Assembly (NCBI RefSeq): GCF_000003605.2
Contig: NW_003146809.1
Location: 1-33,996 of the forward strand
Direction of reading: 5' to 3'
Length of the DNA stretch: 33,996 nucleotides
Source of the DNA: Saccoglossus kowalevskii
Lineage: Eukaryota; Hemichordata; Enteropneusta; Harrimaniidae
In this document: positions 500 through 24,676 of the stretch, piece after piece
Layout: each line of letters starts with the position of its first letter
Numbering within the stretch: position 1 is the stretch's first letter
Notes under the pieces: model-generated
The model's database searches: none
What the model saw: only the letters and a program-made list of their open reading frames with translations
What the model was told of the DNA's origin: nothing
Made by a program: the position numbers and the translations under genes

Positions 500-1314
500 A
501 TTAGTTTATAGTGTGTTTTAATTGCAAAGGAAATCTTTATTTCATTAAATGACTCAGTTTGTTCATAATATTTGTAGTCATATAAAGCTTTGCATTATTG
601 TCCATTTTTTTATAGTTGAATAATTTAGTCTTAACATTTTTTTTATGTAATGTGCTAGCTTAGCCTTGTCTAATTTGTTATGTGCATTTCCTATTTTTCC
701 TATTATTTATTCTTAAACATTGCCAATCCCACCAGGGAATGTGTAAGTGTTAATAAATTTCAATTACTTGTTGGATACCTTGACATTTCAGCACAGACGA
801 TGTTCATTGAATGTATAAAAAAGGCTTTGTGAACATTTTTAAATAAGTTAACTTTTAACAGCAAAGCACGCTTTACTGGGTGTTGATTTTTTCTGTTCAT
901 CTGATTTTTTCCAGTGTACAACAGTACAGGAAGTGATCCTAGTGTTAGCTTTTTAACAGTTCCATGGTTAACAAAGAACCATTTAACAGTTTCTTTCATA
1001 ATAATTTAAACTGTTGACTCGGCTGTAACCAACATTTAACATTTTTAAATTTGTTGTTTAGTTAAATCGTGTCCTCTCAGCCTATATCTACTTTAATGAG
1101 TGTATAGGACCGTACTATGGATATATGCTGATGCTGTGTGGTAATTTGTTTTATTATAAAAAAAAATGGGAATCACTGTTGTATCCAGTAATTTTGTTAC
1201 TCATTCCAACTTACTTGTTTTGCTAATTTAGCCAATTTAATGCCAAACCGGTGTTGGACAGATTTGTGTATCAGTACAGTAATTGCTGAAATGTTTTGAA
1301 ATGCCATATTTCAG

Positions 1315-2362
1315 GTCAATGGATAATCCAGATACCCATGAATTATATGACAACTTTCAAAGATATGGTGTGCCACAGCTCAGAGAATTCCTACGAAAAA
1401 GGGGTCTTCCTGTTTCAGGACGGAAGGATGAGCTCGTTGCCTTGGCATATGCTGCATCCCTGATGAAATTATCATTAGTGCAACAGCTGCAGAGAAGTCA
1501 GCAGACAGAGAACAACAATATGCAGCAACACTGATGGTGGATGGAGAGAGACTTCCAGATCCTTTTATTGATCTCAAGTCTTGTTGGGAGGATGAGAACA
1601 CTTCCATTTCAAAGTGGCCTCCAACTATGATAACTGATGTTCAGTTGTATCTACAGCGCCATAAAACAGACATAGAAAGTGCCAACCTGTCAAAGAGACT
1701 GTTAAAGGATTACAAAGAGGGGAAAGCATTCAGCTACTTTTCATCTCAATTTCTCTTTGAGATATTTTATCACCCAATATCTGCTAATAGTCCCTACTGT
1801 TTCTTGAAAACAAAGTGTACGCCATCCCAAAGGATCAGTCATGAACCTCACAATGTGTGGGTTGCAATAAATAAATAGAGTGGAGAAATTAAGAGTTCCT
1901 ATTGCACATGTGTAGCTGGGTGAGCATAATTTTTTTTTTAATTTAGATTTAAAGTAATATTTTGACTGTTAAGGCTGGTAAAGACGGTGACTGACATTTG
2001 TACAAATTTGGATCTCAATAATCAATACTTGAAATATGATACAGGTGGGGGCATTCTTTATTATAATGAATTTACCTCTAATTTACATCTGTCACAACTG
2101 AGGAAATTCTAAAACTAAGCAAAAAGCAATTTGAGTGGTCACTATTAATTATTAAATTTTGCTAAATTGTTAGTTCTGTTAGTTCAATAATTATGCAAGT
2201 CTTCTTTTTTAATGTACTTTATTTTACAGACTTGGCCGAACCTGTAATCATGTTGGAGCAGTTCTGCTTAAACTTGATTTTTGCTGGAAGTATGGGATAG
2301 TTGTGAAATCAAAGACCTCATTGCCTTGTACATGGAAAGTGGCTGTCAAAGGTTTAAGTTAA
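1315..2362 (+). pseudogene. SAP-domain plus SWIM zinc-finger gene fragment, broken and 3'-truncated
   Basis: The acceptor CATATTTCAG (to 1314) is followed by ATG 1319. The first frame encodes a SAP DNA-binding fold (about 1367-1457: YGVPQLREFLRKRGLPVSGR). A one-base frameshift between about 1462 and 1530 moves coding to the frame with LPDPFIDLKS, ISKWPP and KDYKEGKAFSYF. An in-frame TAG at 1876-1878 interrupts it before SYCTCVAG. Splicing GG|GTGAGC (1919/1920) to the acceptor TTTTACAG (2222-2229) gives CTCVAGLGRTCNHV, a full SWIM signature CxC-x7-CxH. It then reaches TSLPCTW and ends inside the right inverted repeat. In related invertebrate proteins I know, SAP and SWIM domains precede a YqaJ-like exonuclease, which is missing here. 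Three defects argue against a working product. Confidence 0.8.
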
Positions 2363-9225: not shown

Positions 9226-12200
9226 CTGAAAACATGAAAAACGTCCAAATTAATATCTACACACGTACATAGTTTGATTGAGCAACAATAGTATCAAATT
9301 GGCTAAACGAAGGAAGGGCGCCATCTTCGAGTATTGACGGTATTATTGATTACAATTGCCGCCGTAGGTGGCATCCGTCGATGCGAAACTCACCTTATTA
9401 AATATTGTTTTTTTAAGTGCGTTCAACATAATTTCTAACGCCAACTCAGGAATTTTAATCCCGTTTATGTAAACGCCTTTCTAATGTTTAATGTTAAGAC
9501 TGAATGAAATGTTGTTTCATCAATAAGCAGGTAGTCTGACAAGCTCCACAACAGAGCAACAGAGTGTCATGGTATATAATAGTAGTGACATCGCCCCAAC
9601 ATTGTGCAAGAAGTTGGGAGGCATTCCGTCACTCTCACCGCAAAGTATTTGTGCCATTTACTCTCAACAATTACTGCAAAAGTCATGCACGTATTTTTAA
9701 ATTAGAAGAATTTTAGGAGGGGTTGCCTTTAAGACAAGGACCAATCGACATAAATTGAGCAGAGTTGTTCCATATATATTGACCGAGAATATCCACGCAA
9801 TACAATGTTCTTACTTCCCAAATTACATTCTATATAATTACCAGTTTTCCGAATCGATTAAATTCTCCAGTTCTCGTATTCGCTTGTACGTGTCCTCTAA
9901 TAAAGCATGTTTTTCCAGGCTCTTGGCGTAACATTCTTCGCAACAAGTCGGCAGACCGGGATCGTCTCTGCGTGGATACACAATTTTGGTAAACGTCTGC
10001 AAAATAATAACATATCAGTATGAAAATTAGAGATTAATATATATATATATATATATTATAGTTAAAGCACGTANNNNNNNNNNNNNNNNNNNNNNNNNNN
10101 NNNNNNNNNNNNNNNNNNNNNNNTTTTGGTAAACGTCTGCAAAATAATAACATATCAGTATGAAAATTAGAGATTAATATATATATATATATATATAATA
10201 GTTAAAGCAACGTACTATGAAATGCACATGAAGAGCAACATGTACCCGTGCATATAAGCAGGTTAGGGAGTGAATTTCTCATCGGCTGGACAGACACAAA
10301 TGTTTACAGACACAAGTGTTCGTTTAAATTGTAGTTCATGTCGTGACAATTATTTGTGCATATCCCTATTTTTGCTTTAGTATAACGCAATAATAGTTAT
10401 TGCGGAGTCTTTTATTTCAAATAAAATACCCCGGAATTTTACCGAAAGATGATATGCACATATTAATAAAAAAAATTAATAAAACCGAACATTTCACTAC
10501 GTGTTATCGATAAACCGATGGGAATAATCGACATTTCAATTAGAATGTTTTTTTTTTTAATTAACTGGAATTTATTTATCTAGCTGTTGGGTGACACCCT
10601 ATCGAGTACGGCCCAGCCTGAACGAAACGACACGCTTCCGGTTTCGCTCTATTGACCGCGCTGTTCTTATCTCATGTTTTATATGAGCATAGACTTGCTT
10701 GCAGTCTGTTGCGATTCCGATGAAAAATTTATGAAAAATAAATATAAATTGCGTAAACGAGGCGTGAACGCGAAAGGCATGTGACCGCGAAATCCCAACT
10801 GGTTTCAAGTTGCCATCAGTGTAAGCGCCCTCACATTACCGGCCAGATTCGGGCTTGTTAATTTGCATATACGTCTTACGGTGGGTGGAGCAGCCGAGTC
10901 ACGGATCATAACAATAAACCGGACATCTCACGTGCATGTGTTTACATGTCTGGCGCTATGTTACCACGTTGTTGACGCCAACAAAATTGTGTAAAACATC
11001 CATCCTTTCTATATTGTGTGCGGTCTTGACATAGTAAAGGCAGACGACAGGCGAAAATTGCTTAAAGCCAGCAAGAAGACCCTTGCTTGCCAGGAGATTG
11101 AAGTCGTCACGGTTATTGGCGAGATTCTTGATCCGCTGTTGCAGACAAAGGACGCCTGGCGAAGTTGTTCAAGAAAAGTGACAGCTATCGCAAAATAAAA
11201 TCGACAATTTGAAAAAGTTGTATCATGAAACGAATCAAAGCGAAGGGGCAAGTGGAAACCCCCAGAAGTCTTATAAATAGCGAAGAAACCAGGTGACTGA
11301 AACGAAAAGCTATTTTCGAACAGGCGACCGGAAGTAGCGACCAAGTGCACATCGCCTGTAGTCGATACAAAAACGGAACCATTTCAAAAGTCAGTGACTT
11401 TTCGCTGCCTGTAGGAGCAGACACGAATACGTCTCGGCCATCTGAGTAGACCTCCACGACCTCTCGATGATATCCACGAAGGCTTTGGTATCCTAATACT
11501 TTTAAGGCTCGCTCCAGACATTCTCCTGATAACATTGCACGTTTTTTTGAAATTCAATCTAGAATAAAATGACATATGTGATTCGGATATGAGAAAGTAG
11601 GTAAAGTTTTCGGGATCTAAGTTTATCCATGGAGGTAGAAAAGCTTTTCTACCTCCATGGATTATCCAAGAAAGTGTGTATGGTTTTCGGAGTCCCAGTT
11701 GGTATGTTAATTAGCCTGTCTTCTGATTGGTTGAAACATATTACATGCCAATCATTACAAGCCCCACTGACACGCAAATCGCCGCAAACCAACGCCACCT
11801 GTGTTGACACAATGTTACAAGCCCGAATCTGGCCGGTAATGTGAGGGCGCTTACACTGATGGCAAGTCTGTTGGGATTTTGCGGGCACATGACTTTCGCG
11901 TTCACGCCTCGTTTACGCAATTTATATTTATTTTTCATAAATTTTTCATCGGACTCGCAACCGACTGCAAGCAAGTCTACAATGAGCATTACGTGATGTT
12001 TTCTTCGCTGTGAATTAGAAGCAATTACCGGTCATTGTTTACCGCAATTTGTCTATGTAAATACAGTTTCTATAACACACGTCAATCACATGAGTTACCG
12101 GTTTTGACAGTCTTTCATGTAAGTTGCAATTGATATATTTAATGTATTTCTAACATGGGAATACATATATCTATAGGTATGCGTAGTTTCGCACTTGAAA

Positions 12201-14913
12201 CACTGGCGGTGCTTCGCGATCGTAATGTAAACAGAGAGCACAAAGTAACGTGAAAATAGCAACCGTGACGTTTATTGTGTGATAAAACAATCAGGATATT
12301 CGCCGAATATTGTCTGAGGTCTGGTGTACTTTCACGTATCTACATGATTAAAAACCGAAGAAGTGCTGCATTGCACTTTTATAGTGGATGAATTATTAAA
12401 AATCGTGATTAAATAGCAGTAGTACATTTTGAAATACATTAATAATAATTAACTTTATATGACGATGATAACAGAGTAAGGTTTCCCCTATCATGCCCAT
12501 GGCCCTCAAGAAAATTTGCTATGAATGGTTTACCTTTAAAAACAGCATGGCTTGGAATCTATACGACATATGCCTCGCTATACGCCACCCCACTAGAAAT
12601 ATGTGATTGACACATTGTGACGATCTCAATAATCTGCTGAGCGTTAGAATGGGGCATAGCGTGTCAGATGACACACATTTTTCATACTACTTACAACTCA
12701 GGACATTGTTTTATGTTAGTTGATTATCAGAAGCAAACGATTGGCCGCTTTATTCAAAATAATAGTGGGACGCACTATCTTACCAATTATTGACATTTGT
12801 TACAGTATAAGAAACCTCTCTATGCGGCAGAAAACTAGTAAAATCACTTACGGCACTGATTAAGGCGATCGCCTCCTGTTGGCGGAACACTGATACAAAC
12901 CATGTCTTCAAGTTCTTATAGAAGAACAGTTCAAAGAACATTAGAAACCAGCTGATAGCGATTCCACCGGCCAGAAAGAGAAAGGCGCCCGCTACCTGGC
13001 TGCTACCGAGAATGTTGTCTTCCTCACTGCGCCTCGTTCGCTTGGCGGCGCACGAATCAAGGCTGATCCATTTTTCACGGAGAATGTTCAGAAATCCTGT
13101 CACGAGAAAATGTAATTAATGAATGACGTAAGTATTCACTAGGAATGACGTGCATTAGTTGAGGCATTGCCCCAGTAGAGAGGTAACATTTTCCAGTATC
13201 CTCAATCCCTCGTGAAGAGTTGTAATCATGTGATATTGAACTGTTTTGATTGTCTGAGATGTGTTTAGGTTGACAAACTGTCAAAGGGCATGGTGTTTGT
13301 GATATGACCTGCATTTAATCCGACTTATTATTCGTAAAAAATATTACCGAGGTCTATCATTTGAGATATTGACACTAATAACCACACTTCGTGGATTTTT
13401 GGCGAATACAATTACAGTCACATTGCCAATACGCATCACGCGAGATCCGAACACATCAGCATAGCAAAGCGCATCGCGACTGTACGAATACGCACAGCTA
13501 ACTACGCCACGCGGACAAATTTTGTTCGAAAATTAACATAGTAGAAAATGAGGATACATTATGTGCATTGCTTTGACTGACAGATACAGACAACGCTCAC
13601 CCGTAGGACGGACCTATTAATTTTTCCACTAACTTTGGCCGTACCATTTTGACTAGTTATTTATTTGAGAAAAAATAAGCGTTGTTTCCTACCGTTATCG
13701 ACATACTGGAGTAAAGCCCTGTCGATTAGCCCCCTCCACGGCGAGCTCTTGGGGAATGCTATGGCGTAGCCAGTCATGGCGAAGGCACTATCAACAGTCA
13801 CTAGATTACAATCGTGTGCTTGGGTGGCCAGAAACTCGGACACCATAGCGTCATAGATAAAAACGTCGAGATCCCTGGAACAATAGAAAATAACCCGTCT
13901 ATTTTTGTTATATACACAATACATTGATACTCAAGTTAAGATTTATTATCATACCTAGCTTGAAATTTATAATCTTACCCAGAGTTCAATGCTTCTATTC
14001 CTTCTGCCGCCGACTTAACTAGATATTGCTTCATGTACTGGTGCATTCTGGGATTATGATCTTCTATAAGACTTTCAGTATTTGTCGACTGAACAGTTGC
14101 AAACTTGATTCGTGGTGAGCTCTGGTGCGGATTTTGTAACTATCGAAATAATGAGATTAGGCACGTGGGTAGAATTATATTCATTAACTCAAATGTTCCG
14201 TTGCGATACCGCTCTGTTTTAGTGGAGTAAAATGACTAATCAAGTGACCGTTGAGAGCGTCATATTTCCTCCAGTCATTGCGTCCACTGTTTCAAATATC
14301 AAGGCTACAAAACAAAACTAATAAATTAACATTAACACAGAAAAAGAAAACAACCACCAATAGTACCCATTTCGATGGCCATCAATCCGTCCTATAGTTG
14401 GCTGCATGTCTGTCATGTTTTCTGGGCGTGTCTGATAATACATCAAGTGAAACTGACAAATACACTAGTGACAGACGTCATGTTAAAGCGGGAGGCTTGT
14501 CATCTGCGCACGCGCGGGAATTAAGTCACAAGCGATGATAACAACACACGCTAAGAACGCAAAGGCTCATGGATAGACGCTTGTTTGTAAACAATGACCC
14601 GCTATGGCCACCTGACGCATGCGTACGTGACGACTCCCCCGCTTTAAGGATTACTTTACCTTTGGGTCCATAAAACCATCAATTGGTAAGGTTGACTCCA
14701 CTTTGATCATGTGCGCTGTCAAGTTTGCCGTGTAGAGGGCGACGAAAACGAGCGTATAAAAAGCCCATATGGAAGTCACGAACTTGCCGGTTACGCTCTT
14801 CGGCACTCTGGTTGGCAGTGAGTTGTTGGTGTTTATCGCCCAAAGCATCCACAGTGAATCACCAAAGGTAAAACTAGAAGCTGTGAAACCAATATTTTAG
14901 TAGAGTTTTGCGA

Positions 14914-15010
<97 letters not shown>

Positions 15011-18000
15011 GTAAATCGTTGATTCAAATTTCGAAAATTAACTATTCAGATTACTTACCCCTCGGTTCGGTAAGCTTCCTTGCATATCCAGTTGGACTAA
15101 CCCATTCGACAAAGAAAACTGCCAGAGCGGTGACAGCAAGGGCTATTATCCAAGCCATGATCCATACAAGAAAATGGAAAGGATCTGAACCAGAATAATC
15201 AGAGCAATCAATTGAAATGCAAAATACAAATACACGAACATTAAACTGACAACTGGAATCGCAAGAATGCGTGTTCGGATTTAAATTTACTTCTCAACTA
15301 GAGCACTATGTGAGACATGCGTTTGGTCATTATGTGTTGAAATACAAACACACATTGTAATTATGCTATTGACAATGGAAATACCTTCGGGCTCGGTACT
15401 TTAACCAGGAACGATAAATATATTAAGCTATTGAATGGTTTGACATAAATGCTTATAACTCGTAGCGAATCCTACTAAAATCAGACCATACTGGCTCAAG
15501 GGTATTTTTAAGTCGAAACTATAAATCTATAAACAACACAGTTTACAGTTGTATTTTACAGCGGTTGACAGCGAGAATCCATTCACTCGTATTGAGTTGT
15601 TTTACATTAAGTAGCAGTAACCATCAATCTGACTAGCACACGATTCCTAATGTGAATAACATCCCCATTGAAGCCATACAGATGCCGCTGTAACGGGTAA
15701 TTATCAGGCCCGAAACTCATTAGTATCGTCTCGTGCTTCTCAGTCATCAAAGAATAATCGCCGCCGAGAGGCGAAAGGATATATATCTCTGACATACATT
15801 CTATATAGTCAGGTAGTTAAACGCCCACATGATGACCAAGTCATGTAATGATCGATTTATAAGCATCTCCCCGTAACAACCAAATCTCTAAGTGGAGCTG
15901 CATGAATCAGTCTTTCTTGCTCAACGTTGTTTTTAGATGCAACCGTACATACACTATCATCAACAATGCTACAAGAATATATTTTTGTAAAGATGCAGAT
16001 CTGATTCATACCTAAAACATGGATTCTCATTCATAGATTTTTAGAGGGGTTGAATTATAAGAATGTTATAAATGCCAATGTTAAAATGTTCTTGTTTCTT
16101 TTACAATCGGCATTTTATTAAACACAACCAAGCGATTATATATTAGGTGCTATGTAGCTAGATATTAAATTGTTGACGGACTTATCACAATAATCTCGTC
16201 CAGTCAATAAACCAATCAAGACTCAATTTGATCTTTTTTGAAAAGAGAAATTAGAAGCTTGTGTAAATATGGTAATTTCAGAGGATGCATAATGCAGCTG
16301 CTTGGTCTGTTTTGGAGACAAGAAAATATGACCATGTGGTACCCGATCCGTCAAGTCTACACTGGTTTCAAGTAAAGAACCCCAACACGGCCAGAACCCC
16401 CAAATACATTATTGAAATATTGCACCCGCGTTTACAAATACCACACACTCTAAGATCATCTTAAAGTAAATTTCGTATTTGTAAATAAAATATGACAAAT
16501 CTTCCTATGACGTGGATGTTTTTCTGTTAGAAAGTTGTAGCATGCTGCTAACCATGAACAATTTTGATAATAAAAATCTCACCATAGACTGCATGTAGTG
16601 GGGTCCTTCCTTTAGATTCCATCACGATTACAGACACACCACTTGTCATGAAAGGAACCGAGAAATCTAATACTTCGGTTCTTTGGGATGACATTTTCAT
16701 GCCCCCTACCATCATATCCGCCTTCCCATACACCAACTCGCCGACGGCACCATTCCAACGACCGCTCTCTAAAAACCTACCGTAGCTATTCACAACGAAG
16801 AAATCAAACTCGAATATGTTGTCCAATGTCATGCTGAGTTCTTTCAGTAGATCGACAGCAAATCCCCCACAGCACCGGTCAAGAAAATCACTGCAATACA
16901 ATAATACCTTATGACAGGCACTTTTACTGAAACCGGAGTAAAATCAGTGTTTTTAAATTAAACTATTTGAAAGAAGAAGATGCTCACAGTTCACGTTTCG
17001 ATTCAGATTCATGCATATTCTGTTTTGATATTTACTTTTAACTGCGGGTTATACAAACACTCTAAAGTGTTACCTTAAAATATATATAGACTCAACAGTT
17101 GGATTACGTACATACCCATATGTGCCATTCATTTTTTTGCAGAGTATCCCATTATTACATCCGTCAGTGTCAAGAGACAGCGCCCTCACGAATGGAGTCT
17201 CCTCCACGGTGATTATCCTAAGTCGCTTTTGGGTTAATACTGGACTTGGTTGGTGACCTTGTCGGTTACTGTGCTGTCCTATCCACGTTATAGATTTTAG
17301 TTTTATTTTACCTTTTTTCCAAGTGCCAACCTAATAATAAGTTACATAATAATAGCAAAGCAGTTCTAAAGGTGATCACACAAATCAAAACAACAAATAC
17401 GTATTTCACAAAAAGAACATTACACAAATTTAAGAGCTAGTCAAACGTAAATGTAATTTTAAACTGAACTTTTCAATAAACACAACTTTTATACAATTGC
17501 TGAAATTGCTCGATAGCGTTATGTTCAATGGCTGTAAATATGTAACACAAAATGAAATACAATTGACCGGAGTGCTGTTGTCTGTGCATTCATAGACCCT
17601 CTAGAGGTGCATTCTAGTAAATGATTATCAATACTATAAAAGACAATGTATAGAAGATTCAGTCGAGTGGTTGTGGTAGAGGAGGGGTTGCTAATTTTAT
17701 TTAATATAAATTAGTAGCAACTTTTTTTTTATTAAACTTGGTGACTTGGTTGTGAGTTGGTGGTGTACACACAATTTCCGAGAACGACTGCTATTAAATA
17801 GTCATAAGATGCATACTATAACGAAGTGGCAGTGATGTAGTCATGGTTGTAGTCACGCTTCTAAACCTCAAAATGGAGTTGTTGTGCTGACCTATAGCCG
17901 CAATGTAGGTAGCGTTGCTAGTTAGCTTTTTAGCCTACGAAATTAAAGTTGTCATGACACTTTGGGCCACTGCACCTTACTCTGGGTTGGCGTATCGTTT

Positions 18001-21000
18001 TTTGACGAAATGCCGCGGGGCATTGCTCGCACAGTGTCTAAAACGGAGGTCAATGGCCAGTCATGACACTCACTGCTCTATTAACACCCCAAAGAACTTA
18101 GATATGTTTCATTTCAGTGGTTGTAAGAGAGAAATGATTTTTTTCTGTCGGAATGATTTTGCGCGTGCACCACCATTTTGCAATTATGTATTTATTTTTT
18201 AGAAACTCCCGTTTCCTCATATTAAGCACCCTGACTGAAGCCAGCTAAAAATGTCGTTAACTACCTGTTTCACATTGTAGGAATCATCAATGTTTACAAA
18301 TGCCAATTTAGGATGCAGTAGATACCCGTCTTTATCAAATCCGTCCGCAATATCAATCACCGAGCGATTCAAATACGGTTGCAGAACATTATCCCAGGTT
18401 CGGTTAGTGTTTTTGTCGCAAGGTCCAGCGCTTAAACTACGCAGGTCGTTACCATCGTTTACGTAATCGGCAATTGCTTCTGATAATAACATTTTAGCGA
18501 ATCGAGTCCTCGTCGCAGATGTATGACTAATGTGGCCTGGTCTCACGCCTATGAGACCAATTGGAATCACCCCAGTGTTGTTTGAAAATGGTTGTTCATC
18601 CAGGGCTGCTCCGCTGATGATCCATACCAACCCCTTTTTCAGTAAGCCGTTCTCTGCAGCAGAAGCCAGTACGGTTCTCGTTTGCATCGGGTTCATATGG
18701 AAAATGACGATAGAAGAGCTAAGAGCAATATGCTCCACTTGATGGGAAATATTTTTTTCAAAATCCAGGACGTCGTATACGTTGTACTTCCAATGATCAC
18801 GATACTGAATAGCAAGAGCCATCTCCGCTACAAATTCCACAGAAGCGTGGTTTGGTCCGGGAACCAGAGTAAGATGGTACCAGTGAAAGTATTCAAGAAA
18901 GTTTAGTATTGCAAGACAAACGTCCCTCCCCTTTGGAAGAAGATATATCATACCTGGTGCATCTGTTCCTCCATGTTTCTATAAAAAAATCATTTACTGA
19001 TTTAGAGATTTAAATTGTACACAATTTGTGCGTATTTTGGCGTACTTATCAACAAAAATTCCCAACAAATTTTTTGCCAATATAATGGACTCTAAACTGA
19101 ATATAAATCTTTGAGATAATATCAAAAGGTATCAAAGTCACACATGTTTTTATTTAAAAATCACTGTGACTGAATAAGACGGGTGAGGAATGTAAAGCTG
19201 CATGTGCTTATTTTCTGTCACCAGACACCTGATCTCACTTCTGTACGTCGAGTGCTTTAAGTCCCGTATGTGTTTCTGTGACTGATTTTCTCATGTACAA
19301 TTGCACATTTGCTAGTTAGTTTCCATATATTTGTCTCATGATTTTGTGTCTCTTTGGCAACGAACACTCGGTGTTTATTCGCCCTTCCAGAATTCTTGAT
19401 GTAAGTTGGACTATTTCGATGTCTCTTTTAAGTGTTAGTTTGCACTATTCTGATATATATTGAATATATATAATCTAATTTTTGTTTACAAACTCAAATT
19501 GAATGTAATAATCGACAATGTTATACAACACGTATAATTTGATTAATCACAATGACACAATTGTTGAAAATAACTTATATGCATGGCAGTGTGTTTCAAT
19601 TATAGCACCATTATTTGCGTGCGCATTTGTATCTGAGTGCATTTCACTATTCGTACACAGAGTCCTATGTCAGTTCATTCGACTTTATTTCTCCTAAAAC
19701 AGGGAGGAGGGGGGGGGGTCTTGTATCTTGACGTTGGCACTGCAAACAACATGGCATATAGCGCGAGTAATTCCGACACTTCACGGGTTTTTATGGGTAA
19801 TGAATTAGTGAAGAAAGAGAGTAATTTCACTTTACCTATAAGTAGAATTTATTGATCACTTCGGTATGGCGATTATGTGCTTCGAAATTCCGTACATATC
19901 AACAAGTGCAATACCGACGAGATAACAAGATGTATACCCATAGGGGCCTGTCAACTGACGGCGAATCCACAAGAGCTAGAAGGGTGACGTCACAGCTAAA
20001 TATTTTCATAATTTTAGGCAGTGATACATAGTTTAACTTTGAAAAAAAAATGACACACACATGTACATTTTCGTATCAATCATTATTATCTGAGGTTTCT
20101 CAGACCGGTGCAGGGTGTTTTAAATTGAGTCTGTATATGTTTTGTATTTTTCCGAGATGATGTTGATCATGTTATATATGACGTTCTCAAATCACAAACG
20201 TGCCAGCTCGGTCGGGTGTATGATTCACAGTTAAATTTTGAACGGCCGTTGATTTAAACCATTCTAGGAAATCTCTCTTTCCATTTAATAATATGATAAA
20301 GTACATATTCCAACCACTCTAGGCCAGTAATTGTCAATAGCTGATTTGTGTTTAATACAAATCGTCAGCTTGAATTTATTTCCTCTTCAATATTTATGTA
20401 TGTGCGTATGTGATTCCAAAGGCGCAGGTGAGATGAACATGTAAAAGTATCCAACCTCGCGGAAATTGGGAAACAGGTTAAAAGTAGTAAAATTATTCAA
20501 ATTTAGTTAAAAAAATATAGCCGTCTTCTTCGTTAGACATTCTCTATTTTGAGTTACAATGCGTGGACCCAGTAATGCAAAAAAAAAAAAAAAATGTTTT
20601 ACAATCAATCAAATACCACCGAAATAGCTCAAATCGCTTTGGGGCCAAAGCGGTCTTTCCAAGCATCACTCACCTAATTTTAACACTTGTCAGGGGCATA
20701 AAATATTGCCCATTTTCCACTGGCTTGACCAGTAAGAATCCTGTAATTGTAGGTGTGACTTGATTTTAAAAGAGTTAAGAAGGGATGTTTTTTCATAATT
20801 GCAGGAATTATACTATCGAAAATTGGTATGCAGCGCGCCCCACGACTAGCAAACAGTATTTAAAAAGAAATTACATATTAAGAATACGTGAACGAATAGT
20901 GAAATGTACAAACGGTATATACACGTATAGGAATGTAGTGACCTTATATAAAAATCTAACGGCCTTACATAGGAATAAAATAATTACTAATGTGGAAATA

Positions 21001-24000
21001 CATTTAATTAATTTAACACATATCCCACGTCTTACTCGTCACTAGCTTGTTTTGTTACCCTTAGGAGGCGTACCTTATCTCACTGGTTTTAAGCATAGCC
21101 CGTCATTGGTTGGATAATATTATCTTACTTGTTCCACGAATTTCTTAGGGCTATAGGTTTCACACTACATTTAAGGGCAATCTTTATTAGCTCTCGCTCT
21201 TACGGTTCCCTACCAAATCTACCAAACTGACAGATTTCAAGGAAATCAAGATCACAAAACGTTATACTTACAATTTACAAAAATGTTTAACATGAATATA
21301 TTATTAGTGAAAATATGTTACGGGGTATCATACTTACCTAATATGGAAATCAAATATCCTCTTATAGGAGTGAAATGAACTAAGGTTGAAACGAAATATG
21401 CTAATATAAAAATGAAATGATCTATTAAACATCATGGTCTATATATCTTACTCGTATTGACGTCTCATATATAGTGTATACGTCATTTGTTTCGTTTGGT
21501 TCTTGTAAATTGTTTTGTCGATAGACGTCAATCGTATGTTATTGCGTTCTTGACTTCACTTTTGTTGACTAAAGTAAAGTTGTGTACGTTTTATAAAGCT
21601 TTTAAACAGTGGCGAGAAACCTACAATGGTTCAATTATAATCACAGTATACCCAGGGTATTGTTTTAGAGTCAATATTATCTTCCTCGCCCCAAAGTGTT
21701 TCCATCAGTAGTGAAGTACTATATCACAATACTGCTTAAGTACTGCCTGGGGGAGATATCATCGCATTGCCAGTGTACATATATGACATCACAATTACGT
21801 GTGTAGTCTGATTGCACTAATATGACACTAAAACAAAATAACACGAAATGAATAATTTCACAATAATGCTAAATATTGTGTTTGTACGTGTGTCAAAAAA
21901 CAAAACCTCGCTAGATAGTACTTCGAATTTAACGCTGGCCGTTATGATTAAGGTAGCAATACGAGTTAGATGACAATTTTGATTGAATACCAATATATAT
22001 GTATAATCCCATTCTAAATCTTTATTTACCACATATACTTTAGATAGAAAGACAGGTAGCAGGGGCGTATTCGACCATATGAGGTAATCACTTATTAAGT
22101 GTTAAGACTATTTGCCGGGTCCTGCGTTTACCAGGTAAGCCTTCCGGGAATTAAAAACAACTGATATATTTTAGTTCTATTTCATCATGTAAAAAATACA
22201 AGTAAGTGGCAATTTCTATTATAAATATCACCAACAAATACACCCCACTATATCATATGATGTAATCCATGACAATAAATTCCAATTATCTGATTGGGCA
22301 ATGCAAGCTGATTAAATTTAGCCAATCTCAAAATGCTTCTGTGACAAAACATTTCTGTGACACCTTGGTTTGAAATGATGGATTCACAAATCAGTTAAAA
22401 TGATTGTGTTCGTGTAATGGAGCAGCGTATATACGCGATGCACTTTCAAAATCTCCAATCTAAACTTGTTCCTCACACGCGCGTTTATTTTCCCTAAGAT
22501 TCGTGGCAATTTCACACAGAATTTATAAAGGCCGAGAACTGAACTTTAACTCCATGTATTTACGAATAATATAAGCAATTCAGTAAACGTGGTTAAACGG
22601 TGTACTTGAAATAGCGACCCTGTATACAAAGGAGGTGAGGAGGTGGATGTGAGTACGTTCTCAAAATTTAAGTTTCTAATTTGTGTTTATATTACATTCA
22701 ACTTTGGAATGGATATATTTTCGAGGATGTTATGACTCTACAATAAAGTTTATTTTTTATCCATGTAATAATCTTAATAAATCTTAATGAATATGATATA
22801 TGATATTCTCCATGTGTCCTAAATATATTTGTGTATTTTCCAACTGTACTGGATTTGATGATAATTGCTATAATGTAATACAACGGGCAACAGAGTAAAA
22901 CATTTAAACAATTCATTTTGTAAAACGATATTCCAGAGATAAGATATACTTCTTTCAACTCAGACAAGTGAATTTGTTGTATTAAAAAGAATTATAGAAA
23001 ATTGTATTATCATTGTAATCAATACCAAAAGAGATATTCTCAAATCCAATTCATGTCTTATTTGTTCTTGAATCTAAATTCGTAACGTGTAGTAATGTAC
23101 ATGTAAATCCATTAACGGCAACGACTTAAACACTGATTAAAGGATTATGGTAATATATAATTTACAAAGTGGTAGATTAAACGTCAAATGCTTTCCCGAT
23201 TGATGTGTTGAATACTGAAATGCCTCCACACACAGCGTGAGTACAGTTTTGGAAATACCCAAGGGTGCTACAATGAACGATATCATGCGTGTCACGTTCG
23301 AAGATGAATGTATTTGTCCAAAAGCAAAAGCACATGCATTTAATAACTGTTTAAGAACACTATGCTGTTATTCAGAACCGAGGAAATTCAATTCCATATG
23401 TTTAAACTCCATCCATAAACTAAACTCGCCAAAGTGAGGCCCATTGCAATTGTCATACAACATAGGCGATAATAAAAAGTGTTGAATATTTTGAATTATA
23501 TGGTTGCGTTTACCTTGGTGCATGTTTTTTTCAAACGTATTAGTCACAAATTTATTTACACCTAATTCAATAAAAATATTACAAAGAGTCAATCGCATAA
23601 TATGACACCTGTATTAATTCTATCGTTTTACATCGAGTTCCGTCACATTATTCGTCAAGTCATGTATATTTTCCGGTAGCTAAATTCTTTACCATGAAAT
23701 CAAACAAGATATACTGTAAACATCGCAAGCCACGTGTCTGCATTCAATGTAAGCGGGTAACCCATTTGCTCAATAATATAACCTTGTTTACGGACATTGT
23801 TTGATCTCATAACATAATTCAATCGAGTAAATATGTTATACATAGTTTAGAACATATGGTTTCCATCAGAACATACTCAGCTGCATCAGTAAGGAGTAAT
23901 GTACATGCCCCAAGATAGGGATGTGCCTGTGTTATTTTTTTACAGTTCAAACAAACGTAACGGCACACACACAAATCTATAATAATACTAGATAATTAAC

Positions 24001-24676
24001 ATATTGGAATGAATCATTCACTTCCCCAATTCTGCATTAGCATTATTATTACATTACAAATATGTGACGTATTTACTCGAGTTATATAACTTCGCTAAAA
24101 TTATAGCTGCAAGGCCATTCAAGTAATTTACAGTAGATGTCACATTTCTCAATGCAGCAAATGCAATTTCTGATCCGGGTCAATTACCTCACGTGTATTG
24201 AGGAGCACACAACCCTAGTACGTTCTCTAATCAAGTTCTTAATATAAATAATACAACGCATACATCATTTTACGTACCTCTTGTACTAATGGAGCTGTCA
24301 CGGATACCGCCGGGATATGCAGGGACTCGGCAAGCTTTGGAATATACGAAGAACCAGGAAATACCGAACCAATGTCCCACTGGCGTGTGTTCTGCTCGTC
24401 GACGGAGTATATCAAACCGCTAAGATTGTGAAGGCATATTTTGTTCTTTAAATGTTGTATAGTTTGATAAGGACTACCAGATGACAACTGTATTGGAACC
24501 ATGTGCATTATAATTCCGCCTTTGTCAGTATCAACGACGTACCTTCTATGCCGACGATCAACGTACAACGTGTCTTGCGTGAGAGCGTGAATGACACCAA
24601 TTCGGACGTGCGCGCCGATTTTGTCCATGAGAATGCACAGCAGAACGAGCCGGGTGATATTGAAGTTTTTATCCAT
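9033..24676 (-). CDS. GRIN2-like: NMDA-type ionotropic glutamate receptor subunit, GluN2-like, complete 11-exon gene
   Basis: Eleven exons with GT-AG junctions and matching phases join into 2919 nt, giving 972 residues and a TGA stop. Domains in order: signal peptide (about 1-22), amino-terminal domain (23-about 375), S1 (about 410-540), M1 (about 550-572), pore loop M2 (about 592-611), M3 (about 622-646), S2 (about 662-795), M4 (about 806-832) and cytoplasmic tail (about 835-972). Family marks are the S1 start RIITVEETPFV, cysteines C449-C450, DFSVPF at 518-523, pore NN at 606-607, FIYDA at 720-724 and the C737/C791 pair. The protein should be a plasma-membrane, ligand-gated cation channel subunit that works in a heterotetramer, normally with GluN1. 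The NN pair, SFTFG entry to M2 and VPF-TSGVSV stretch favour GluN2 over GluN1 or GluN3. Divergent at the M3 gate and ligand pocket, so agonist and gating may differ. Start ATG has A at -3 and G at +4. Non-coding 5' exons, if any, are not seen. Confidence 0.93.
9226..9841 (-). other. Receptor intron 10
   Basis: 616 nt between tail exons 10 and 11. No repeat or coding segment recognised. Confidence 0.75.
9842..9996 (-). CDS. GRIN2-like: Receptor exon 10: proximal cytoplasmic tail (residues 858-909)
   Basis: The acceptor TATTTTGCAG and donor GAAAACTG|GTAATT give 51 codons plus 2 nt, fitting exon 9 (phase 0) and exon 11 exactly. The product has a cysteine cluster (TCCEEC) close to the membrane, which might be palmitoylated, then a charged stretch (LEDTYKRIRELENLI) with coiled-coil character. 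The 5' end of this exon is repeated beyond an assembly gap, at 10124-10136. Confidence 0.82.
9984..10214. repeat. Direct duplication flanking the assembly gap
   Basis: Positions 9984-10073 and 10124-10214 are almost identical (both TTTTGGTAAACGTCTGC through a TA run to GTTAAAGCA-CGTA; they differ by a base near the end of the TA run and a one-base insertion). Each copy includes the 3' splice site and first 13 nt of exon 10. Most likely an overlap between contigs that was not merged, or two alleles placed in tandem. Confidence 0.85.
10074..10123. other. Assembly gap (50 N)
   Basis: Exactly 50 undetermined bases inside receptor intron 9, directly next to exon 10. The round number suggests a placeholder length. 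Confidence 0.99.
10690..10858 (+). repeat. Left arm of intron 9 inverted repeat
   Basis: Pairs with 11817-11979. It has GGTTTCAAGT near 10801, where the other arm is six bases shorter. Confidence 0.7.
11016..11198 (+). CDS. Unidentified open frame inside the fold-back element
   Basis: Sixty codons with ordinary protein-like composition (VKADDRRKLLKASKKTLACQ, then EVVTVIGEILDPLL). I do not recognise a family. It lies between the left arm and the helicase fragment, on the opposite strand, and could be another captured exon piece or chance. No splice partner or start context supports independent expression. Confidence 0.2.
   Translation: MCGLDIVKADDRRKLLKASKKTLACQEIEVVTVIGEILDPLLQTKDAWRSCSRKVTAIAK
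11365..11535 (-). pseudogene. RecQ-like DNA helicase N-terminal fragment
   Basis: The frame from 11535 encodes ALKVLGYQSLRGYHREVV, the Q-motif region of RecQ-type helicases, then GRDVFVSAPTGSEKSLTFE, matching helicase motif I (Walker A, usually PTGxGKS). The second glycine of the loop is Glu here (GSEKS), which would be expected to break nucleotide binding. Homology appears to stop after about residue 57; the rest of the open frame to 11185 reads as non-homologous sequence, and no DEAH box is seen. It lies antisense to nothing known, on the same strand as the receptor, inside the fold-back element. A captured, dead gene fragment is the best reading. Confidence 0.6.
11625..11662. repeat. 38-bp perfect palindrome
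   Basis: Two 19-bp arms with no loop, centred on AGCT at 11642-11645; the left arm reads ATCCATGGAGGTAGAAAAG. It sits inside the fold-back element, just upstream (minus strand) of the helicase fragment. Confidence 0.9.
11817..11979 (-). repeat. Right arm of intron 9 inverted repeat
   Basis: Pairs with 10690-10858. Read on the minus strand it has an open frame containing KFMKNKYKLRKRG, and in another frame SQQTCHQCKRP with a CxxC pair; neither could be assigned to a family. Confidence 0.7.
12852..13096 (-). CDS. GRIN2-like: Receptor exon 9: end of S2 and M4 helix (residues 776-857)
   Basis: The acceptor is CGTGACAG and the donor GCC|GTAAGT, phase 0. It encodes FLNILREKWI and C791 (disulfide partner of C737), then a basic stretch KRTRRSEEDN, and M4 from about 806 to 832 beginning SSQVAGAFLFLAGG, comparable to IDNMAGVFYMLGA in GluN2. 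The membrane exit is YKNLKTWFVSVF. Confidence 0.94.
13097..13692 (-). other. Receptor intron 8
   Basis: 596 nt. Nothing recognised beyond ordinary AT-rich sequence; the minus-strand frame at 13075-13314 has no known motif. Confidence 0.7.
13693..13874 (-). CDS. GRIN2-like: Receptor exon 8: S2 core (residues 715-776)
   Basis: The acceptor is TTGTTCCAG and the donor GATAACG|GTAGGA; read-through past the donor reaches a stop. It encodes LDVFIYDAMV with D723 at the amino-group-binding aspartate position (GluN2A D731), C737 of the conserved S2 disulfide, and FAMTGYAIAFPKSSPW, matching FASTGYGIAIQKDSGW of GluN2. Intron 7 before it is only 104 nt. Confidence 0.95.
13979..14139 (-). CDS. GRIN2-like: Receptor exon 7: start of ligand-binding S2 (residues 662-715)
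   Basis: There is no Met-started frame of useful length. The acceptor is ATCGATAG and the donor TCTGG|GTAAGA. It encodes LQNPHQ, then KFATVQSTNTES and PRMHQYM, aligning without gaps with the GluN2 stretch RFGTVPNGSTER and MHAYM. N681 and T682 occupy the positions of the glutamate-contacting Ser-Thr pair. Confidence 0.92.
14140..14659 (-). other. Receptor intron 6
   Basis: 520 nt between exons 6 and 7. About a third of it is the TTAA-flanked MITE next to the 5' splice site. Confidence 0.8.
14483..14647. mobile_element. MITE with TTAA target duplication
   Basis: The 165-bp block starts TTAAAGCGGGAGG and ends CCCCCGCTTTAA. Terminal inverted repeats of about 10 bp are exact (TTAAAGCGGG) and continue imperfectly through GTCA and GCGCACGCG-like sequence. 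TTAA at both ends fits piggyBac- or Kolobok-type insertion. It is distinctly GC-richer than the intron. It ends only 12 nt from the exon 6 donor. Confidence 0.65.
14660..14880 (-). CDS. GRIN2-like: Receptor exon 6: pore loop M2 and gate helix M3 (residues 588-661)
   Basis: The acceptor is GGTTTCACAG, chosen over the later CTAG because it restores phase and gives ASSFTFG, matching the GluN2 entry to M2. The pore tip reads WAINTNNSLP, keeping both asparagines of the N and N+1 sites (606-607). M3 ends LYTANLTAHMI where the family has SYTANLAAFMI. The donor is CCAAAG|GTAAAG, phase 0; a MITE begins 12 nt further on. Confidence 0.95.
14918..15006. repeat. TA dinucleotide microsatellite
   Basis: 89 nt of uninterrupted TA within the 178-nt intron 5, between the M1 exon and the pore/M3 exon. 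The tyrosine-isoleucine frame across it is an artefact. Confidence 0.98.
15059..15184 (-). CDS. GRIN2-like: Receptor exon 5: M1 transmembrane helix (residues 546-588)
   Basis: The exon is 126 nt. The acceptor is GGTTCAG and the donor GAGGG|GTAAGT. It encodes DPFHFLVWIM and a hydrophobic helix followed by FFVEWVSPTGYARKL, which corresponds to the M1 end FEYFSPVGYNR of GluN2. The plus-strand frame across this exon is a shadow. Confidence 0.93.
15185..16582 (-). other. Receptor intron 4
   Basis: 1398 nt between the S1 and M1 exons. No coding or mobile sequence recognised; the minus-strand frame at 15607-15795 has no known motif. Confidence 0.7.
16583..16890 (-). CDS. GRIN2-like: Receptor exon 4: ligand-binding S1 core (residues 444-545)
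   Basis: The acceptor is TATTGCAG and the donor TATG|GTGAGA. It carries RCCGGFAVDLL (CC for the NMDA loop-1 disulfides), the glycine- and tryptophan-rich RWNGAVGEL, and VGGMKMSSQRTEVLDFSVPF at 504-523. R513 aligns with the invariant carboxylate-binding arginine (GluN2A R518). The residues aligned with GluN2A S511 and T513 are G506 and K508, which is unusual. Confidence 0.95.
17116..17330 (-). CDS. GRIN2-like: Receptor exon 3: linker and start of ligand-binding S1 (residues 372-443)
   Basis: There is no Met-started frame of useful length here. The acceptor is TTATTATTAG; the exon begins VGTWKKG and continues through RLRIITVEETPFV, the hallmark first strand of the S1 lobe in NMDA subunits. Cysteines in GCNNGILC belong to loop 1, which is shorter than in vertebrate GluN2. 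The donor is TATGG|GTATGT, splitting a glycine codon. Confidence 0.92.
17331..18264 (-). other. Receptor intron 2
   Basis: 934 nt. The read-through from exon 2 stops near 18220. A plus-strand frame at 17915-18202 has no recognisable motif. Confidence 0.7.
18265..18978 (-). CDS. GRIN2-like: Receptor exon 2: bulk of amino-terminal domain (residues 134-371)
   Basis: The acceptor TTTTTTTATAG precedes KHGGTDAPGM, so the exon begins upstream of the first Met in the open frame. The donor is CAG|GTAGTT after SYNVKQ. The frame runs on past the donor to a stop near 18220, but the splice joins NVKQ to VGTWKKG of exon 3, the expected motif at the end of this domain. It contains the second lobe of the clamshell (LNFLEYFHWYHLTLV) and N-glycosylation sequons such as NNT, NRT and NRS. 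Overlapping plus-strand frames are shadows. Confidence 0.92.
18979..24277 (-). other. Receptor intron 1, 5.3 kb
   Basis: The largest intron, splitting the amino-terminal domain after residue 133 at phase 0. It contains a G-rich run (about 19702-19718), a poly-A tract (20579-20594) and a bulged hairpin (20339-20370, AGCTGA-TTTGT against ACAAAT-CGTCAGCT). Several open frames here (for example 20785-21045 and 22698-22967) have low-complexity, AT-driven composition and no family match that I can see. Confidence 0.7.
24278..24676 (-). CDS. GRIN2-like: Receptor exon 1: signal peptide and first part of amino-terminal domain (residues 1-133)
   Basis: The open frame starts at ATG 24676 in good initiation context. 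Residues 1-22 have a hydrophobic core (LVLLCILM) ending at GA, as in a signal peptide. The rest fits the first lobe of an NMDA-receptor amino-terminal domain: VRIGVIHAL strand, then KICLHNLSGLIYS with the cysteine usually disulfide-bonded in this domain. The donor is GAG|GTACGT, phase 0. Confidence 0.88.

Follow-up and report, generated by a model that had tools for sequence, protein, structure and literature searches.

The window, which is the whole stretch of DNA analysed here (33,996 nucleotides, contig C3744 of a 572-Mb assembly), carries a gene for an NMDA receptor subunit from which the canonical SYTANLAAF gate at the end of M3 is absent, with 3/9 motif positions changed, and every GluN2-type gene that we found in the same genome departs from the motif in a similar way. 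All four of these genes have His at position 9, Leu or Met at position 1, and Thr or Val at position 7, which makes the unusual gate a property of the GluN2 subunit class in this genome. The reading that we prefer, at a probability of roughly 0.55, is that the gene encodes a pore-forming GluN2 partner of GluN1 that is under purifying selection and in which the A7 constriction and the F9 contact have been remodelled, with functional consequences that we infer from sequence. With A7 and F9 replaced in every GluN2-type gene found and GluN1 unchanged, the genome serves as a natural experiment on the requirements of the NMDA receptor gate.

The product of the gene was recognized as an NMDA receptor subunit by sequence comparison, and the gene model has nine exons on the minus strand (24676..12852; Table 1) that join into 857 uninterrupted codons with GT-AG introns and consistent phases throughout. 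The start codon of the model is a choice, and the model ends at exon 9 (12852), with any C-terminal exons beyond that point lying outside it. The first-pass annotation had placed the motif LYTANLTAH within an intact exon with clean splice sites, and both statements are borne out in the spliced frame, in which the motif is encoded by CTC TAC ACG GCA AAC TTG ACA GCG CAC and its exon is bounded by a TCACAG acceptor and a GTAAAG donor. The substitutions it had listed also stand: relative to mammalian GluN2A and GluN2B, Ser1 is replaced by Leu, Ala7 by Thr, and Phe9 by His, and Tyr2, Thr3, Ala4, Asn5, Leu6, and Ala8 are kept. A pure (TA)44.5 tract (window 14918-15006) lies in the intron immediately preceding the gate exon.

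Table 1. Exons and gate motif of the GluN2-type gene in the window, and its three paralogs (window positions unless contig C1210 is named; splice sites as acceptor / donor)
Feature	Coordinates	Strand	Evidence
Exon 1: start codon, signal-like stretch, beginning of the amino-terminal domain	24278..24676	-	open frame, donor GTACGTAA, phase 0
Exon 2: remainder of the amino-terminal domain	18265..18978	-	TTATAG / GTAGTTAA; GluN2A alignment from model residue 156
Exon 3: ATD-LBD linker, start of S1	17116..17330	-	TATTAG / GTATGTAC; Lig_chan-Glu_bd match
Exon 4: S1 half of ligand-binding domain	16583..16890	-	TTGCAG / GTGAGATT; residue table: Tyr (His485), Gly (Ser511), Lys (Thr513), Arg (Arg518), GluN2A sites in brackets
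Exon 5: pre-M1 and M1	15059..15184	-	GTTCAG / GTAAGTAA; Pro552 kept, the exon's first full codon
Exon 6: M2 pore loop with conserved Asn-Asn; M3 bearing the altered gate	14660..14880	-	TCACAG / GTAAAGTA; phase 1 in, 0 out
Gate motif LYTANLTAH, residues 636-644	14711..14737	-	spliced frame
Exon 7: S2, first part (Thr688 Asn689 Thr690 by GluN2A numbering)	13979..14139	-	CGATAG / GTAAGATT
Exon 8: S2, second part (Tyr730, Asp731, Tyr761 kept)	13693..13874	-	TTCCAG / GTAGGAAA
Exon 9: end of S2, pre-M4 linker, M4	12852..13096	-	TGACAG / GTAAGTGA
Paralog A	C1210 near 413 kb		motif MYTANLVAH
Paralog B	C1210 near 492 kb		motif MYTANLVAH
Paralog C	C1210 near 711 kb; exon 6 (L057) C1210:711635-711855		motif MYTADLVTH

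Assignment of the gene to the GluN2 class rests on matches, layout, and phylogeny. The best 60 PDB matches listed are all GluN2, headed by GluN2A (366 bits, E 3e-108), and the protein matches the Pfam families Lig_chan, Lig_chan-Glu_bd, and ANF_receptor above their cut-offs; it has the amino-terminal domain, the bilobed ligand-binding domain, and the M1-M2 loop-M3-M4 layout, and model residues 156-847 align to GluN2A. The tree comprised 14 rows with the motif columns left out: four GluN2-type, two GluN1 (only 47% and 36% filled), two GluN3, and two AKDF rows as outgroup from the window's genome, together with four mammalian subunits. In this tree, the four GluN2-type genes grouped with mammalian GluN2A and GluN2B at 96/95, GluN1 (100/97) and GluN3 (100/98) were separate from that group, and all 12 NMDA rows split from the two same-genome AKDF rows at 100/100. 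By this evidence from sequence, the window gene belongs phylogenetically to the GluN2 class. The vertebrate GluN2A and GluN2B subunits share with it the clade, the layout, the loop-1 cysteines, the CC of S1, the N-site Asn-Asn, Ile654 of the VIVI gate, and the pocket residues Arg518, Glu413, Tyr730, and Tyr761; they differ from it by S1>L, A7>T, and F9>H in the gate and by Thr513>Lys, His485>Tyr, Ser511>Gly, Ser689>Asn, and Asn816>Gln elsewhere, with 41% identity to GluN2A over 411 columns. Mammalian GluN3A, like the window gene, has changed residues at positions 1 and 9 of the motif and Tyr at 485, but it keeps A7, has Gly-Arg at the N site, and falls in a clade with the genome's own two GluN3 genes. 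Membership of GluN3 was ruled out for the window gene, which lies outside the GluN3 clade and has Asn-Asn at the M2 N/N+1 site (N614 N615), a pair kept in 4/4 of the genome's GluN2-type genes. Within the GluN2 group, the four genes cluster at 72/60 only, so that a single origin of His9 is not proven; topologies that place the window gene with mammalian GluN2 instead (p-AU 0.35), or the three C1210 genes with the mammals (p-AU 0.17), were not rejected.

The GluN2 class itself has precedent. PMC6307864 reports every NMDA class from the bilaterians it covers, the exception being NMDA2 in two echinoderms (priapulids were not examined for NMDA2/3), so that a hemichordate GluN2 is known as a class, and the window gene may already be among the gene predictions for the animal. 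The invertebrate-specific subunit suggested in the first-pass annotation falls by the tree into the GluN2 class, so that the class is not new; what sets it apart is that the four GluN2-type genes found in this genome all have His9 and departures at positions 1 and 7. The gate of hemichordate GluN2 found no mention in the available portions of the literature on hemichordate or Saccoglossus NMDA receptors (PMC6307864, PMC12226733, PMC10861852, PMC8634674), and a literature search for the altered motifs as text strings, which are rarely spelled out, returned none. In Aplysia iGluRs, SYTANLAAF is described as highly conserved (PMC5225553, in part). Weaker conservation of the motif is reported for Lambda and some Phi iGluRs, and many ligand-residue changes for NMDA-Cnidaria; these are different classes (PMC6307864, in part).

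The genome contains at least four GluN2-type genes, of which one is the window gene and the other three lie on contig C1210; this number, like the other counts here, is a lower bound because it comes from the best candidates of two genome searches. Exons 3-8 of paralogs A, B, and C are each readable and open, with splice sites at the intron phases of the window gene; because paralog exons were accepted only at those phases, sharing of the phases is assumed, and the support comes from good splice sites and alignments. Exon 9 was recovered for A and B and was seen as an open frame for C. His9 occurs in none of the 13 other iGluR M3 exons found in this lower-bound search, which read SYTANLAAF (four), SYTANMAAF (two), TYTANLAAF (two), and, once each, SYTANLAAY, TYTANLAAY, NYTANLAAF, AYLSNLGAF, and MYLGNMSAI. 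Both of the genome's own GluN1 copies have SYTANLAAF, and its GluN3 copies have SYTANLAAF and SYTANLAAY. The GluN1 pieces lie on C1550 (about 1,292,663-1,302,460) and C4731 (about 151,791-154,126), with SYTANLAAFLV in both; the C4731 piece enters Ns just after M3, and the presence of a second GluN1 copy in an invertebrate genome merits a check. The AYLSNLGAF and MYLGNMSAI exons belong to AKDF genes on C50 (L004) and C354 (L006), which by our own reading have no Gln at the Q/R site and resemble the published Phi class.

The motif codons of the paralogs differ synonymously from those of the window gene at positions 3, 4, and 6. An assembly, contamination, or annotation artefact might be suspected from the fact that the window is a whole 34-kb contig by itself; we hold this to be extremely improbable, as a contig of 2.26 Mb in this assembly bears three genes with the same kind of motif and the G+C content of the window (0.36) is matched by that of six C1210 pieces (0.35-0.39). 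The three paralogs elsewhere in the genome likewise make sequencing error or chance very unlikely. A search with exon 6 found no relative among viral contigs, nor was one present among prokaryote genome contigs. That the locus is an NMDA subunit and not simple decay, as first proposed, is upheld by the open frame, the GluN2 matches, and the paralogs; a pseudogene or artefact was ruled out by the open frame, the paralogs, and the codon-position pattern described below. The first-pass annotation had also named, as a finding that would refute it, that the variant is ordinary in all GluN2 subunits of the phylum, and the count of four in four found, in one genome, goes part of the way toward this.

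The gate columns stand out against the rest of the alignment. Nineteen columns are invariant in all 10 other aligned rows (at least nine filled), AKDF included; at nine of them at least one of the four GluN2 genes departs, and A650, which is A7 of the motif, is the only one at which all four depart (Thr, Val, Val, Val). When the AKDF rows are set aside, 27 columns are invariant across the eight remaining NMDA rows, and A604 (Ser in all four genes) is a further one at which all four depart. At 16 columns, the four genes agree with one another and GluN2A agrees with GluN2B, but the two groups have different residues. At columns 631, 652, 665, and 698, the residue common to the four genes occurs in no other filled row, and only 652 is near-uniform elsewhere, with His in the four genes versus Phe in eight rows, Tyr in one, and Val in one. 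Ala7 is thus present in every other aligned row (10/10), and Phe9 in 8/10. NMDA receptors can vary at positions 1 and 9 of the motif, as mammalian GluN3A reads TYTANLAAV. At position 7, Gly or Ser occurs in the two AKDF genes of the genome that lie outside the alignment and are Phi-like, without formal classification.

Structures and variants of mammalian receptors indicate what these positions do. According to the available part of a cryo-EM study of GluN1/GluN2A, the three constrictions are formed by T3, by A7, and by GluN1 V656 with GluN2A I654; when the channel opens, the pre-M1 Pro552 moves closer to F9, and Asn816 forms a bond with the backbone that follows F9 (PMC12459464). In the four hemichordate genes, T3, I654, and Tyr2 of the motif are unchanged, a larger residue occupies the A7 site, and His occupies the F9 site; Pro552 is kept in 3/4, and the Asn816 site reads Gln, His, His, and Asn in the window gene, A, B, and C. 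In paralog C, 5/9 motif positions are changed; N5 has become Asp, Thr occurs naturally at the lurcher site (A8), and the equivalent of Pro552 is Ser. The first-pass annotation had noted that the lurcher alanine is kept, which is true of the window gene and does not extend to this paralog.

Single changes in the gate motif occur in human patients, and several fall at the positions that concern us (GluN2A-S644G, A650S, and F652V; GluN1-A652T and F654C), with GluN1-A653T being the kind of change present in paralog C; unlike these single substitutions, the changes here are combined and are common to the genes of one genome (PMC10973091, in part). The same source, as far as available, gives open probabilities of 0.0018 for F652V, 0.54 for A650S, and 1.0 for S644G in GluN2A (wild type 0.19), and of 0.12 for A652T, 0.40 for F654C, and 0.45 for A653T in GluN1 (wild type 0.24). 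It also reports that GluN2A-F652V has a glutamate EC50 of 0.93 versus 3.5 μM, weaker Mg block (IC50 187 versus 19 μM), and stronger inhibition at pH 6.8; that GluN1-A653T has an EC50 of 0.12 μM and is strongly activating in human receptors; and that among 48 M3 variants 28 are gain-of-function and nine loss-of-function (PMC10973091). Since substitutions at these positions raise open probability in some cases and lower it in others, the sign of the gate effect is uncertain. We weakly favor a lower open probability for the window gene, and paralog C, with its A653T-type change, could be leaky.

A different account of the gate is that GluN2 became less needed in Ambulacraria and the motif drifted, with little adaptive meaning. 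Consistent with such relaxed constraint, NMDA2 is reported missing in two echinoderms (PMC6307864, in part), the tree end branches of the genome's GluN2 genes are long (0.36-1.12 versus 0.09-0.17 for its own GluN1), paralog B has lost Asp731, and paralog C has lost the lurcher Ala, Asn5, and the pre-M1 Pro. Over exons 3-8, however, identity at codon positions 1, 2, and 3 is 0.55, 0.64, and 0.32 between the window gene and A, 0.53, 0.64, and 0.34 for B, and 0.57, 0.64, and 0.32 for C, which is the pattern of purifying selection. Third positions lie so far below first and second positions that the duplications look old and the proteins held since. Moreover, His9 is found in four open genes although their third codon positions are only 0.31-0.36 identical, and the pore Asn-Asn, T3, Tyr2, and I654 are untouched. 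We regard relaxed constraint as quite unlikely.

The agonist pocket is altered together with the gate, which lends some weight to the earlier suggestion that gating is changed or that the subunit may have a modulatory role. Of the vertebrate-type pocket (His485, Ser511, Thr513, Arg518, Ser689, Thr690, Tyr730, and Tyr761), the window gene has 4/8 residues, namely Arg518, Thr690, Tyr730, and Tyr761, and it also keeps Glu413 and Asp731. Thr513 and His485 are replaced in all four GluN2 genes: the Thr513 site reads Lys, Leu, Gln, and Arg in the window gene, A, B, and C, versus Thr in seven and Ser in three of the 10 other rows, and the His485 site reads Tyr, Phe, Phe, and Tyr, versus His in three, Phe in two, and Tyr in one of the other filled rows. 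The change at His485 alone may be mild, since GluN1 and GluN3 subunits have Tyr or Phe there. The Ser511 site reads Gly, Ser, Ser, and Ala, and the Gly688-Ser689-Thr690 site TNT, TSV, TMV, and SSV, in the same order. Arg518, Glu413, Tyr730, and Tyr761 are kept in 4/4, and Asp731 in 3/4. Exon 8 of paralog B (C1210:491352-491533), with Gly at Asp731, is the only loss of that residue among the four. For comparison, the glutamate EC50 of GluN1/GluN2A rises from 6.1 μM to 3,970 μM with H485A, 810 μM with T513A, and 5,254 μM with T690A, whereas S689A has little effect (7.4 μM) and T513I gives current at 3 and 10 mM glutamate only (available part of PMC12199545).

These replacements raise the alternative of a ligand switch, in which hemichordate GluN2 subunits would bind glycine, D-serine, or another amino acid, the resulting NMDA-type receptor would be excitatory yet independent of glutamate, and the gate would have been retuned to match. 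In its favor, Thr513 and His485 are gone in 4/4, Thr690 has become Val, as in GluN1, in 3/4, Tyr or Phe at 485 resembles mammalian GluN3A and GluN1, and Arg518 (4/4) and Asp731 (3/4) could still hold an amino acid backbone. We take GluN2A 688 and 690 to be the published 653 and 655 sites, by our own mapping of the numbering. The rule for these sites gives Ser653 with a non-polar 655 as the glycine signature (PMC6307864, in part). By it, Ser688 and Val690 make paralog C look like a glycine binder, and Thr688 and Thr690 of the window gene could be compatible with glutamate binding, which speaks against a switch in that subunit, as does the retention of Tyr730 in place of the Trp of GluN1. On balance, we consider a ligand switch possible but unlikely.

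With gate and pocket both altered, the subunit might instead be modulatory or dominant-negative, assembling with GluN1, failing to open, and tuning the number of receptors at the surface, and GluN2A-F652V, which opens about 100 times less (PMC10973091, in part), offers a partial parallel. The pore Asn-Asn, kept in 4/4, would be needless in a non-conducting subunit, and we judge this role very unlikely. Our preferred reading remains that of a conducting subunit assembled with canonical GluN1. In such a receptor, a larger residue at A7 and an altered contact at residue 9 would alter the energetics of M3 bending, with a lower open probability or slower opening as the likeliest outcome; His9 could confer proton sensitivity, and the altered pocket could lower L-glutamate potency or shift amino acid preference. 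Such changes would have arisen in the GluN2 line of the hemichordate group and then been kept by purifying selection. At an identity of about 41%, effects measured in mammalian subunits may not apply to this one. We also entertain, tentatively and as an unlikely extension, a hemichordate GluN2 class rebuilt at gate and pocket together, in which His-gated subunits would work with canonical GluN1, would not be driven by micromolar glutamate, and would use His9 to sense protons or metal. One paralog of this class has a natural lurcher-type threonine, and the sister phylum, the echinoderms, is reportedly without GluN2 (two species). With every GluN2-type gene found changed at A7 and F9, whether GluN2-containing NMDA receptors must be glutamate-gated becomes a question testable in an echinoderm relative.

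The source of the assembly was assessed from its mitochondrial contig (17,037 bases, about 12 kb read), in which genes were named by our own reading of frames. It carries COX1 on the strand opposite to COX2, ND1, ATP6, COX3, ND3, ND4L, ND4, ND5, and CYTB, with ND6 on the COX1 strand and ND5 adjoining CYTB. Relative to human COX1, AUA in COX1 stands at Ile in 5/9 and at Met in 1/9 cases, and AUG at Met in 17/19; AAA reads as Lys (COX1 1/1; eight AAA codons in ND1), and AGA stands once at a Ser site. Mitochondria of Saccoglossus kowalevskii are described with AUA as Ile, AAA as Lys, AGA as Ser, and an inverted COX1, echinoderms with AAA as Asn, and cephalochordates and other invertebrates with AUA as Met (PMC3121625, PMC2697986, both in part). 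An echinoderm source, which the Phi-like AKDF genes had led us to suspect, was rejected on the reading of AAA, and a cephalochordate or protostome source on that of AUA. The mitochondrial code and the orientation of COX1 indicate a hemichordate, with Saccoglossus the likeliest genus.

Two other frames were noted in the window. A SAP-domain open frame (1283-1534, plus strand; Pfam PF02037, 37.1 bits) is probably a separate gene. On the same strand as the GluN2-type gene and 3′ of its exon 9 lies a fragment resembling the start of a RecQ/DEAD helicase (11185-11553, minus strand; further frames 11009-12031), which matches an ATP-dependent DNA helicase in the PDB (E 0.0016), has a Pfam DEAD match below cut-off, and is perhaps an old insertion.
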